Shown here piece by piece: positions 13,468 to 16,721 of a stretch of 32,152 nt of DNA (positions are counted from its first letter, which is position 1; the number at the start of each line of letters is the position of its first letter). The translations under genes and the position numbers were made by a program. A model generated the notes under the pieces. It did no database searches, had not been told where the DNA came from, and worked only from the letters and a program-made list of their open reading frames with translations. Source of the stretch: Bacteroidetes bacterium GWF2_35_48 (GTDB taxonomy: Bacteria; Bacteroidota; Bacteroidia; Bacteroidales; GWF2-35-48); the NCBI GenBank assembly GCA_001769125.1, contig MEOG01000053.1, positions 1-32,152 of the forward strand, read 5' to 3'.

Positions 13468-14940
13468 TTATTTCTTTTGAGGGGCAAGCTGTTTAACATT
13501 CGATTCCTCAAAATAAATGAACAATTTAGCATGTATGGGAGTCCACCATCTTGTAAATTTTGCAGCATAATCTTTAATACGAATACAACCCAGACTCGAA
13601 GGTGTCCCCATTAATGCATCCCTGAATGGACCCACGGCTAACTCGTGAATACCGTTTCCCCTACATGCATTGGGGTAAGCTCGTACCGGAAGAAAGCCCA
13701 AAAAATTAGGCAATTCGCATTCTGTAGGATAATAAATGCAATGAACGCTGTAGCCGCCTCCCATAAATTTATCTCTGTGCCTTTCAAAAGCAGTATACTT
13801 CCTGTCCGTACTCCAAAAACGCGACCTGACTATATTAACCGATCCATAAAACCAATTCTTCAACCCGGCTGCATTAAACCCAAAATAAACATCCCCTTTT
13901 CCGGCAGCAATAAAGCGGGCAACTTGTATAATTGTATCATTTTGCGCTTCACACAAACATAAAGTCTGTCCGGAACAAAATTTTCGTGATAAATATTCAT
14001 AAACCGGCTTTTTAATTAATGGAATACTCTTACAAAATGTATCAACCTTATAAATGTAATTCATAAGCAATTCCTTTTCATAAAATGCGTAATCCAAAAT
14101 ACCTAAATGTGGTAAAAGTTTAATAAAAGAAAGCGAATCCATCTCAGCTAAATCATAAAAATCAATATTATGAAAAACAGAAATGGCATTCATCATAGAA
14201 AAATCTCTTAACTTAGAAATTTCAGGGAAAACCTCCACTACCCCTTTACAATTCCCATCATAACCAATAGTATTAAGATCTGCTACTAAATATCTATTTT
14301 TAAACATTGCATTACTCAGCGAATCATTCAATACTTCGTTTATTGACAAAACGCTTCCGATAGAATCGTCAAGAACCTTCAAAAAAGGAATATAACATGG
14401 ATTTTTATTTAAAAAGCTGTCAATATTTATATGTTGCCTTCTTAAATCCGGGATAGACAAATACTGCTTCCTCCTTTTAGTTTTAAGTTCCGGTAAATAT
14501 CCTGAATCCGGAAACTTTTCTATAAAATATGTAAATGATTTTATGGTATTTAACGAAGAAGTAATTTTATAATGGAGCAATTCAGAATCCCGCAGTAAGT
14601 CTTTATAAAACGGATGTGTTTTGCCTTTTGACAAAAATTTATCTATAAGTAAAAATGAATTTTGCATTACAACAATATTGCAAAGCGTTGCATAAAGGCT
14701 GTCCTTTTTCTTTTCATACTTTTGTTTATAGTATTCCGCTGAAGCCTTGTAAAAAATATCTTCGGGTATTGATTTGATTTCGGAGCTGTCTCTATTCGGA
14801 TTAAAACGAATTAATTTCTGGTTAAAAAAAGAAAACAGACGTTGCTCTTTTATCCAGTAATAAGAATATGCGGCAGTGCCTGAAAACAATATCAAATTTA
14901 AGATAATATGAAGAATAATTTTTGGTATAGTTGTTTTCAA
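13468..14940 (-). CDS. YkuD-type L,D-transpeptidase-like protein, membrane anchored
   Basis: 490 residues. The C-terminal domain carries the YkuD signature: His432 in GNGIHELAVG and the active-site motif SSLGCIRIKD with Cys452 and Arg454. These are the expected catalytic residues for peptidoglycan cross-linking or attachment through a thioester. One membrane helix (residues 7-28) anchors it. Residues 30-330 are a long helical region of unknown family; in many YkuD proteins this part is shorter or is a peptidoglycan-binding domain. A segment with CSGQTLCLCEAQND (322-335) precedes a beta region. The start is TTG at 14940, since there is no ATG near a plausible N-terminus. The 11-bp repeat array begins 28 bp upstream. 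Confidence 0.82.
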   Translation of the reverse strand: MKTTIPKIILHIILNLILFSGTAAYSYYWIKEQRLFSFFNQKLIRFNPNRDSSEIKSIPEDIFYKASAEYYKQKYEKKKDSLYATLCNIVVMQNSFLLIDKFLSKGKTHPFYKDLLRDSELLHYKITSSLNTIKSFTYFIEKFPDSGYLPELKTKRRKQYLSIPDLRRQHINIDSFLNKNPCYIPFLKVLDDSIGSVLSINEVLNDSLSNAMFKNRYLVADLNTIGYDGNCKGVVEVFPEISKLRDFSMMNAISVFHNIDFYDLAEMDSLSFIKLLPHLGILDYAFYEKELLMNYIYKVDTFCKSIPLIKKPVYEYLSRKFCSGQTLCLCEAQNDTIIQVARFIAAGKGDVYFGFNAAGLKNWFYGSVNIVRSRFWSTDRKYTAFERHRDKFMGGGYSVHCIYYPTECELPNFLGFLPVRAYPNACRGNGIHELAVGPFRDALMGTPSSLGCIRIKDYAAKFTRWWTPIHAKLFIYFEESNVKQLAPQKK

Positions 14941-14941
14941 A

Positions 14942-14967
14942 GAATTAGGAATTAGGAATTAGGAATT
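14942..14967. repeat. Tandem heptamer GAATTAG
   Basis: Three GAATTAG units (14942-14962) and a partial fourth, GAATT, directly between the TTG start of the L,D-transpeptidase-like gene and the 11-bp array. Confidence 0.85.
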
Positions 14968-15161
14968 CGATAGATGGACAATAGATATTCAATTGATGTT
15001 CAATTATTTATTCGATAGGTGTACAATAGTGCTACGATAGTTGTTCAATTGACGTTCAATTGTAAATTCAGTAGGTGTACAATTGTATTTCTATTGAATT
15101 CCTATTGAATTCCTATTGTTTTCTATCGTATTCCTATCGTTTTCCTATCGTATTTCAATTG
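14968..15161. repeat. 11-bp periodic array of 18 CNATNG hexamers
   Basis: Hexamer cores start at 14968, 14979, 14990, 15001, 15013, 15024, 15035, 15046, 15057, 15069, 15080, 15091, 15102, 15113, 15123, 15134, 15145 and 15156, so steps are 11 bp except two of 12 and one of 10. Cores are CGATAG, CAATAG, CAATTG, CTATTG or CTATCG (16 of 18 fit CNATNG; the others are CAATTA and CAGTAG). Up to 15035 the asymmetric cores are CRATAG; from 15091 they are the complement CTATYG. The five-unit block 14990-15045 is echoed by 15046-15101 (56 bp each, 12-bp step in the same place, 28 of the first 34 bases identical). The 5-base spacers vary. The gap between the two genes holds nothing else but the mnmE promoter. 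Confidence 0.9.
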
Positions 15162-15320
15162 AAATATTTAAACAAATTTACAAAATTAATCTGAAAATTA
15201 TACATGCCTTAACTGAATTAAAATTATCGAAAAATAATAAAAAACCTGTATTTCAGGAGCTTTAGTTAAAATTCTTCAATTTATCGTGATAAGTACTTGC
15301 TAAAAAAGAAACATTATTTA

Positions 15321-15328
15321 TATCTTTA
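15321..15328 (+). promoter_or_regulatory. -7 box for mnmE
   Basis: TATCTTTA, seven of eight positions of TAnnTTTG, lies 14 bp before the ATG at 15342. It supports starting mnmE there rather than at the upstream TTG (15297), which would lie before the promoter. Confidence 0.5.
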
Positions 15329-15341
15329 CAAAAAAAAAAAA

Positions 15342-16721
15342 ATGACAGATCAATCAACAATTTGCGCATTAGCAACACCTGCAGGGACAGGAGCACTGGC
15401 AATAATAAGACTTAGCGGCGAAAAAGCCTGGGTAATTACAGAAAAAATCTTTAAACCACAAGGAAGACCTTTCGCTCCTGCGCCAAATTCTATTTCCTAT
15501 GGAACTATTTATGATGAGGACCTTATCATTGACGAAGTATTGGCTTCTTTTTTTAAAGCACCTTACTCCTATTCAGGTGAAGATATTGTTGAGTTTTCCT
15601 GTCATGGATCTCCCTATATTCAACAACAAATTTTACAATTACTTATAAAAAATGGCGCAAGATTGGCGCAACCAGGCGAATTTACGTTGAGAGCATTTTT
15701 AAATAATAAAATGGATTTATCGCAGGCAGAAGCAGTGGCTGACCTCATCGCAAGCAATTCTAAAGTTTCACATGAAATAGCTATCAATCAAATCAGGGGA
15801 GGCTATTCAAAAAAAATGGAACAGCTTCGCTCTGAACTGTTAAAATTTACTTCATTAATTGAACTTGAGTTAGATTTCAGCGAAGAAAATGTTGAATTTG
15901 CAAAAAGAACCGAGCTTTTAGATTTGCTGAATGCTCTTGACAGAGAAATTTCGATATTAACCGATTCTTTTTCTGTCGGAAATGCTTTGAAAAATGGCAT
16001 TCCGGTTGCAATTATAGGGAAGCCAAATGTAGGAAAATCAACACTGCTGAATATTCTGTTAAATGAAGACAAAGCAATCGTTTCTGAAATTCCGGGAACC
16101 ACCAGAGATGCAATTGAAGATACAATAAATATAAAAGGAATATCTTTTCGTTTTATAGATACAGCAGGGCTTCGCGAATCAACAGAAAAAATTGAGGCTA
16201 TAGGAATCCAAAGGACTTATGAAAAAATCAAACAGGCAAAAATAATTTTATATTTGTTTGATATCAGCAATACAAGTCTTGATGAAATATCAAATACCAT
16301 TCACGATTTTCAGGAACATATTGAAGGTACCGATAAAAAGCTTATTATTATTGCAAATATGATAGACAAGCTGATAGAAATGCCTAAAAGCTTTAAAGAA
16401 CTTCTGAAATACGAAACCATCTACATCTCTGCTAAAAGAAGAGAAAATATCCAAATGATTATTAACAGTCTTCTGAAAAATGTAGAACATGAAAATGCAA
16501 CCGAAGGAACAATTGTTACAAATGCCCGGCATTTCGAAGCCTTAAATAATGCACGCGCTGCTTTAATCAGAGTAAAAAATGGTATTTCCGAAAAAATTCC
16601 AGCAGATCTTTGCGCACAGGATTTGCGTGAAGCACTTTATCACATCGGCTCAATAACAGGAACGGTTACAAATAATGAAATTTTAGAGTCAATTTTCAAG
16701 AATTTTTGTATTGGAAAGTAA
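15342..16721 (+). CDS. mnmE: tRNA modification GTPase MnmE
   Basis: 459-residue cytoplasmic GTPase that, with MnmG, makes the carboxymethylaminomethyl modification at wobble uridine 34 of tRNAs. The start MTDQSTICALATPAG is the family's usual beginning; the open frame extends upstream to 15297 through poly-lysine codons and is ignored. The N-terminal tetrahydrofolate-binding domain (1-118, with GEFTLRAF) is followed by the helical domain and the inserted G domain: P-loop GKPNVGKS (226-233), TTRD (253-256), DTAG (273-276). The C-terminal CIGK motif has Cys456 as expected. One oddity is the G4 motif, normally NKxD, which reads NMID (339-342), with Met in place of the base-contacting lysine. Monocistronic, convergent with the sugar transferase gene 12 bp away. 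Confidence 0.96.
   Translation: MTDQSTICALATPAGTGALAIIRLSGEKAWVITEKIFKPQGRPFAPAPNSISYGTIYDEDLIIDEVLASFFKAPYSYSGEDIVEFSCHGSPYIQQQILQLLIKNGARLAQPGEFTLRAFLNNKMDLSQAEAVADLIASNSKVSHEIAINQIRGGYSKKMEQLRSELLKFTSLIELELDFSEENVEFAKRTELLDLLNALDREISILTDSFSVGNALKNGIPVAIIGKPNVGKSTLLNILLNEDKAIVSEIPGTTRDAIEDTINIKGISFRFIDTAGLRESTEKIEAIGIQRTYEKIKQAKIILYLFDISNTSLDEISNTIHDFQEHIEGTDKKLIIIANMIDKLIEMPKSFKELLKYETIYISAKRRENIQMIINSLLKNVEHENATEGTIVTNARHFEALNNARAALIRVKNGISEKIPADLCAQDLREALYHIGSITGTVTNNEILESIFKNFCIGK

Follow-up and report, generated by a model that had tools for sequence, protein, structure and literature searches.

Dispersed intergenic arrays of 11-bp units with two facing arms in Bacteroidales: a possible foldback-like element family

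The stretch of DNA analysed here (the window; 32,152 nucleotides from the 5.98-Mb genome of Bacteroidetes bacterium GWF2_35_48, hereafter G000) carries a periodic array between two divergent genes, a 490-aa ORF and mnmE, and its parts are listed in Table 1. The array has 18 slots set apart by steps of 11, 11, 11, 12, 11, 11, 11, 11, 12, 11, 11, 11, 11, 10, 11, 11 and 11 bp, just as a first-pass annotation made from the letters alone had described. The hexamer CNATNG fills 16 of the 18 exactly, the exceptions being CAATTA (15001) and CAGTAG (15069), and the form C[AG][AG]T[AGT]G or its reverse complement accounts for 17 of the 18, CAGTAG included. The 5-bp spacers of the left arm are GTGTA, ATGGA, ATATT, TGCTA and TTGTT among others, and those of the right arm AATTC, TATTC and TTTTC among others. 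A coding role for the array was discarded, as judged by eye, since a period of 11 shifts the reading frame and stops recur; nor did the window from 14000 to 16000 give any Rfam match at E up to 1. The leftward ORF had been taken for an L,D-transpeptidase-like gene, an assignment we could not uphold: no such domain was found in it, nor did any Pfam family match with E up to 0.1, and its sole NCBIfam match, BamD, lies far below the cut-off (13.3 versus 81.4 bits).

Table 1. Features of the window array and its immediate surroundings (positions within the window).
Feature	Position	Strand	Basis
Flanking ORF, 490 aa, TTG start, without Pfam family	13468..14940	-	
Satellite GAATTAG, 7 bp, 3.7 copies, abutting the left arm	14942..14967	+	
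Left arm, ten slots, F cores C[AG][AG]TAG and CAATTG; slot 15001 is CAATTA	14968..15074	+	
Centre TACAATTGTA, perfect palindrome, F-to-R switch	15078..15087	.	alignment of 36 centres
Right arm, six R cores CTATTG/CTATCG, last core CAATTG	15091..15161	+	
Stretch beyond the array in common with the C49 copy (L024), 85% over 80 aligned positions	15162..15240	+	
Flanking gene mnmE (tRNA modification GTPase); MnmE_helical 3.6e-48, TrmE_N 1e-41	15342..16721	+	

The window array is one of many. BLAST with the window region returned 92 matches on many G000 contigs, which group into 39 loci besides the window, and a profile of 36 aligned centres gave 179 G000 matches, 150 of which cluster into at least 53 loci, 13 of them new; five or more chained cores are present at each of the nine new loci that were retrieved. 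The window and two contigs picked for holding several copies, 421,843 bases of G000 in all, contain 11 chains of four or more cores, one of which (L085:10120) coincides with a 12-bp repeat and is probably unrelated. Five dinucleotide-preserving shuffles of these bases yielded no chain of even three cores. The pattern recurs at further G000 loci and, in related form, in other genomes, contrary to the second refuting outcome that the first-pass annotation had named, in which no other locus or strain would have such an array.

Across 40 G000 loci, with steps of 10–13 bp and single-unit skips allowed in the chaining, 623 of 681 steps are 11 bp, 54 are 12, three are 10 and one is 13; period and core are what the array keeps best, as had been proposed. 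The accompanying idea that only these are kept while the spacers vary holds for period and core, but the spacers are not free and fall into few types. Likewise, the two reverse-complementary core forms already recognized turn out to be ordered, and a better rule is that of two facing arms, the left with cores C-R-R-T-D-G (F), the right with their reverse complement (R), and CAATTG at the switch. In G000 the left-arm cores are mostly CRRTAG and the right-arm cores mostly CTAYYG, with a centre core of CAATTG in 33 of 36 centres and CGATTG in the other three. The spacers differ between arms, ATGTW, GTGTW or TGCWA in one versus GAATA, GAATT or AAATA (as reverse complement) in the other, and arms of either spacer type occur in either orientation. 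When neighbouring opposite-arm runs of at least two cores were counted, 63 of 65 pairs had F before R and two the reverse (37/1 in the first G000 loci, 8/0 in the extra G000 loci, and 10/0, 6/0 and 2/1 in three sets from other genomes); one of the two exceptions (L051) consists of two arrays side by side. The arms hold from 0 to 46 counted units, and the lengths of the two arms are uncorrelated (rho 0.05, 36 arrays). Identical cores recur at a lag of two units in 188 of 408 cases and at a lag of one in 167 of 479, against 0.26 for random pairs.

Placement relative to genes was determined with ORFs called by a simple script, those lying mostly inside an array being dropped beforehand. On this basis 37 of the first 40 G000 arrays are clear of ORFs and three overlap short ones, and for the 36 that have a gene on either side these genes are tandem in 23 cases, divergent in 10 and convergent in three. 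The median distance to the neighbouring gene is 34 bp on the side of a 3' end (n=31) and 79.5 bp on the side of a start (n=44), so that G000 arrays sit closer to 3' ends (p=3e-4). The flanking proteins show no common theme, the top Pfam families matching 3 of 72 proteins around the G000 arrays and 3 of 138 around arrays with TCATT spacers (of the 73 and 153 flanking ORFs found, 72 and 138 entered the comparison, long ones cut to 400 aa). One family seen beside the latter arrays is PF05635, the four-helix-bundle protein of 23S rRNA intervening sequences (3 of 138), too few for a link.

Other short repeats share these intergenic spaces. GC skew flips outside the arrays, from a mean of +0.23 to -0.55 (40 G000 loci), partly because 7-bp satellites of the GAATTAG/CTAATTC type abut them; inverted heptamers of this type abut the other (B-arm) side in 16 of the 40. 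G000 carries many 7-bp satellites (GAATTAG, AGACTGT, AGTCGGC and others; for example window 14942-14967, L077:12229-12274, L068:10742-10878 and L082:10326-10396), different ones occur in the same-genus genome G001, and 7 bp is the commonest period among the short-period tandem repeats found (33 of 229 rows).

BLAST with the window array found nothing in 59 other genomes, a search that missed diverged forms which models later recovered. A G000-type model matched 34 of 393 genomes of the order and a TCATT-type model 69 of 386, each count including G000; in a sample of the phylum the latter matched 31 of 395, again with G000 included, and mostly weakly outside the order. Loci read from these genomes follow the same core logic with other spacers: cores of the form C[AG][AG]T[AGT]G occur with TCATT, TGATT, AAATA and AAAAA, giving at least five spacer types in all, in a table that lists rule-fitting units only and so informs on spacer variety, not on conformity. 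The TCATT pattern (without N) was found in at least 119 stretches, and the 80 pattern rows among the matches listed carry 42 accession prefixes, of which 39 are named as Bacteroidales, Bacteroidetes, Bacteroidota or member genera or families, two as Ignavibacteria or Ignavibacteriales and one as Desulfobacterales. G001 has four TCATT-type matches and no G000-type match, with no chains in 266,416 bases and none around its mnmE (L066). G000 itself also holds a TCATT-type array (C95:21841-21898; L278), so that two spacer types coexist in one genome, and further model matches lie on C64 and C71. The exact G000 centre pattern was absent from genome_contigs and viral_contigs (the source genome possibly being left out of these), and blastn with one TCATT array, run with the low-complexity filter on, matched no phage or plasmid record. 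Two IMG/VR contigs, putative phages, bear short TCATT-type arrays (L266:4900-4927 and L267:3277-3304). TCATT-type arrays are likewise mostly intergenic (45 of 46 outside long ORFs), 34 of the 40 with both neighbours lying between tandem genes, and their direction relative to these genes (21 versus 13) shows no significant bias.

How the core itself varies was followed in two ways. Between successive AATGA of the TCATT loci, 516 of 566 six-base slots read C[ACT]A[CT][CT]G and none of the 12 combinations is missing; the count includes pattern-selected units and possibly some overlapping regions twice. Short palindromes (CGCGAAGCG, CGGCGAAGCCG and TCCGTCAGCTGACGGA) fill the hexamer slot between AATGA at L180, L220, L169 and other TCATT loci, as if exchangeable with the hexamer. 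In a grammar-blind phase test, TCATT-type arrays had their three most variable phases at the offsets of core positions 2, 3 and 5 in 19 of 51 cases, against 6.8 expected (a count inflated because the loci were chosen by pattern), and other arrays of the order and phylum, found by models, in 7 of 25 (3.3 expected); in G000 the figure was 2 of 21 with 2.8 expected, no excess. Position-specific variation of the core is supported outside G000 and not within it. Repeats with a period of 11 or a multiple that do not overlap the pattern contain at least two rule cores in 27 of 36 regions and fewer in the other nine. Of 182 units that adjoin the pattern matches, 39 obey the core rule, which on its face speaks against it; these units were sampled, by construction, where the exact pattern stops.

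Evidence bearing on mobility comes from two sites in G119, to which the presence/absence comparison is confined. At the first, the array is absent from all seven congener loci retrieved, both flanks being matched in at least six; at the second, it is absent from all five, both flanks being matched in three. In G119 about 400 bp separate the matched flanks. At site 1 three congeners have a gap of about 147 bp and others one of 330-450 bp, and the array is absent from those retrieved, so that in several congeners the gap is as long as in G119 and yet contains no array; at site 2 the gap in G784 measures about 56 bp. Identity in the congeners is no more than about 70-80%, and because of this the insertion ends are unreadable. 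Since the flanking proteins share no family and the congener sites lack the array, a locus-specific role for the arrays is disfavoured.

Clear ends appear in a related form in G339, where arms of 11-bp units (TTGTACAATAT and ATGTACAATAG) surround CAATTG in eleven retrieved copies. By eye, the left outer end ACCAAC..GGTCG is kept in 10 of the 11 and the right end CGACC..GTTGG in 7 of the 11, and no clear target duplication is visible in these copies. The strict rule finds no runs here because alternate units are, or end in, CAATAT; the connection with the arrays, drawn from layout and a model match (best E 5e-9), is partial, and we regard the G339 form as a MITE-like relative. Conserved terminal ends were not seen in the G000 flanks. 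The window and C49 copies have sequence in common past the right arm (Table 1), and in this pair the copied DNA may reach beyond the array.

Neither a transposase nor an autonomous copy could be assigned to the element. Among genomes of the order, Y1 (HUH) transposase genes are present in 66 of the 69 that are TCATT-positive and in 198 of the 317 that are negative (membership was read from listings and the same genome sample assumed), an association to which we give no weight as non-specific, because the unrelated PF05635 shows much the same excess (55 of 58 positive and 196 of 276 negative genomes). Moreover, G269, whose arrays are strong, lacks any Y1 match. The arrays could not be identified as RAYT/REP elements in G000, where the 10 Y1 matches have no cores at 11-bp spacing within 1.5 kb; for the Y1 gene at C82:73145 the distance to an array is about 2.6 kb, beyond the 1.5-kb stretch covered. 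At least two of the 10 adjoin tandem repeats of other kinds. A 23-bp tandem REP-like palindrome (ATCGGTGCAACCGATGGCATATA) stands beside a Y1 transposase gene at L071:10455-10663 (G000:C105, about 90.5 kb) and at L111, and a different tandem repeat flanks the Y1 gene of L109; these arrangements resemble RAYT/REP clusters.

Some MITE or foldback elements, those of the Drosophila FB type, have inverted repeats made of tandem subrepeats. The explanation we favour, to which we would give an even chance, is that the arrays are a dispersed, non-coding, non-autonomous element of this general kind, with arms built of tandem 11-bp subrepeats. Each inverted arm would consist of units of one hexamer, C-R-R-T-D-G, and a lineage-specific 5-bp spacer, the two meeting at CAATTG; copies would land at new intergenic sites with both arms preformed, and each arm would later grow or shrink on its own through 11- and 22-bp duplication (slippage). 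We infer that an enzyme acting in trans moves the element, that the element arrives with two arms and that the hexamers serve as recognition sites. As in MITE and foldback elements, the arrays are dispersed over unrelated sites (at least 53 G000 loci without a common flanking family), non-coding and differ between relatives in presence at the two G119 sites, and their inverted arms of short tandem units (63 F-before-R pairs versus two) vary in length by copy. They depart from these elements in being prokaryotic, in their degenerate 11-bp unit, in showing clear conserved ends only in the G339 form and in that no transposase or clear target duplication could be assigned to them. Also against a mobile element, many TCATT arrays show a single arm, and the looser chains in TCATT loci (n=114) comprise 11 F-then-R, three R-then-F, one F-R-F and otherwise single arms.

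Slippage alone might instead have made the arrays and be what keeps them, with nothing reading them. We consider a neutral minisatellite of this sort unlikely, even though the likeness of adjacent units, the wide range of arm sizes, the variable phases without special pattern in G000 and the other short-period intergenic satellites of these genomes all suit it. It leaves unexplained the F-before-R layout that recurs at many sites and in other families, the limitation of core variation by base type in the AATGA-spaced slots (pattern-selected units included) and the flank sequence common to the window and C49 copies.

A protein sitting on each hexamer and assembling cooperatively, head to tail along the arms until the two meet at CAATTG, is to our minds distinctly unlikely. 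The same kind of core accompanies at least five spacer types (among fitting units), and the grammar-blind excess in TCATT-type and other arrays would agree with such binding; the same test fails in G000, and pattern choice inflated its TCATT count. The first-pass annotation had all cores facing the same side of the DNA, which is doubtful. Relaxed B-DNA has about 10.5 bp per turn, and by arithmetic strict 11-bp steps therefore rotate the sites around it, drifting by about 154 degrees over ten units, and the arrays do not offset this by steps of 10 bp. Repeated tandem copying of a unit 11 bp long would by itself also give a strict period of 11. Nor does any neighbouring family recur, and the congeners lack the array at the two G119 sites.

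Precedents for such binding do exist. CarH operators (PMC9304148) are degenerate tandem 11-bp direct repeats, the bind locus of pMV158 (PMC9943647) consists of tandem 11-bp direct repeats with RepB reading 11-bp and 7-bp repeats beside a hairpin, and BldC assembles head to tail on direct repeats. CarH and RepB have three or four units at a few functional sites, in contrast to the arrays, with as many as 46 units in one arm and dozens of unrelated locations.

The window array folds far better than shuffled sequence (RNA z -7.29, DNA z -6.39), as any F-then-R array must, G000 arrays lie nearer gene 3' ends, and F-then-R order is identical on both strands, so that the arms might fold as RNA or single-stranded hairpins acting at transcript ends or as bidirectional terminators; this we judge very improbable, because arm-to-arm covariation is absent from 36 arrays in three registers (z 0.41, -0.26 and 0.53) and so yields no sign of a structured RNA family, arm lengths are uncorrelated, A-C mismatches in the innermost core pair are about as frequent as independence predicts, only 3 of 36 G000 arrays have convergent neighbours and the array is missing at the two G119 sites in congeners. 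With arms that neither covary nor match in length, a base-paired stem is seemingly not what is kept, and selection for an arm-to-arm hairpin was rejected.

A further reading, which we put forward with considerable doubt, is that of a widespread, undescribed Bacteroidales recognition system, in which a dedicated factor would read the degenerate hexamer every 11 bp along both arms towards the centre, drive copying or packaging of the element and thereby keep the hexamer rule while spacers drift between lineages. The pMV158 RepB protein is of the HUH nuclease kind, and by analogy the factor might perhaps be an HUH nuclease or a head-to-tail winged-helix protein.

Other prokaryotic repeats offer partial parallels. 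REP/BIME palindromes are mobilised by RAYT (PMC3733652) and, like the arrays, are intergenic, form genome-specific families and occur in inverted order; array units differ in not being individual hairpins, in lacking a GTAG/CGTC-tagged stem and in forming long 11-bp tandem arms. By eye, the 11-bp units do not show the REP/BIME hallmark of a 20-40 bp palindromic unit with a GTAG or CGTC foot. The TAACTGA heptamer arrays of Beggiatoaceae, Cyanobacteria and Bacteroidetes (PMC4679880) are similarly short, tandem, mostly intergenic, patchy in distribution and without a downstream functional pattern, the difference being that they are exact 7-bp units in nearly always direct orientation and the arrays degenerate 11-bp units in two facing arms with a centre. 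Searches of the open-access PMC literature gave no description of the array family, which is new so far as these searches reach.

For those who annotate such genomes the arrays carry a caution, as periodic sites next to a gene, however striking, do not necessarily control it. The arrays appear to constitute a class of intergenic elements not reported before, which occurs in a large and mostly uncultured group of bacteria and has a rule precise enough to find copies elsewhere. If the hexamer is indeed read by a factor, the arrays would provide many natural variants for finding that factor and for studying how elements with inverted tandem-subrepeat arms spread.
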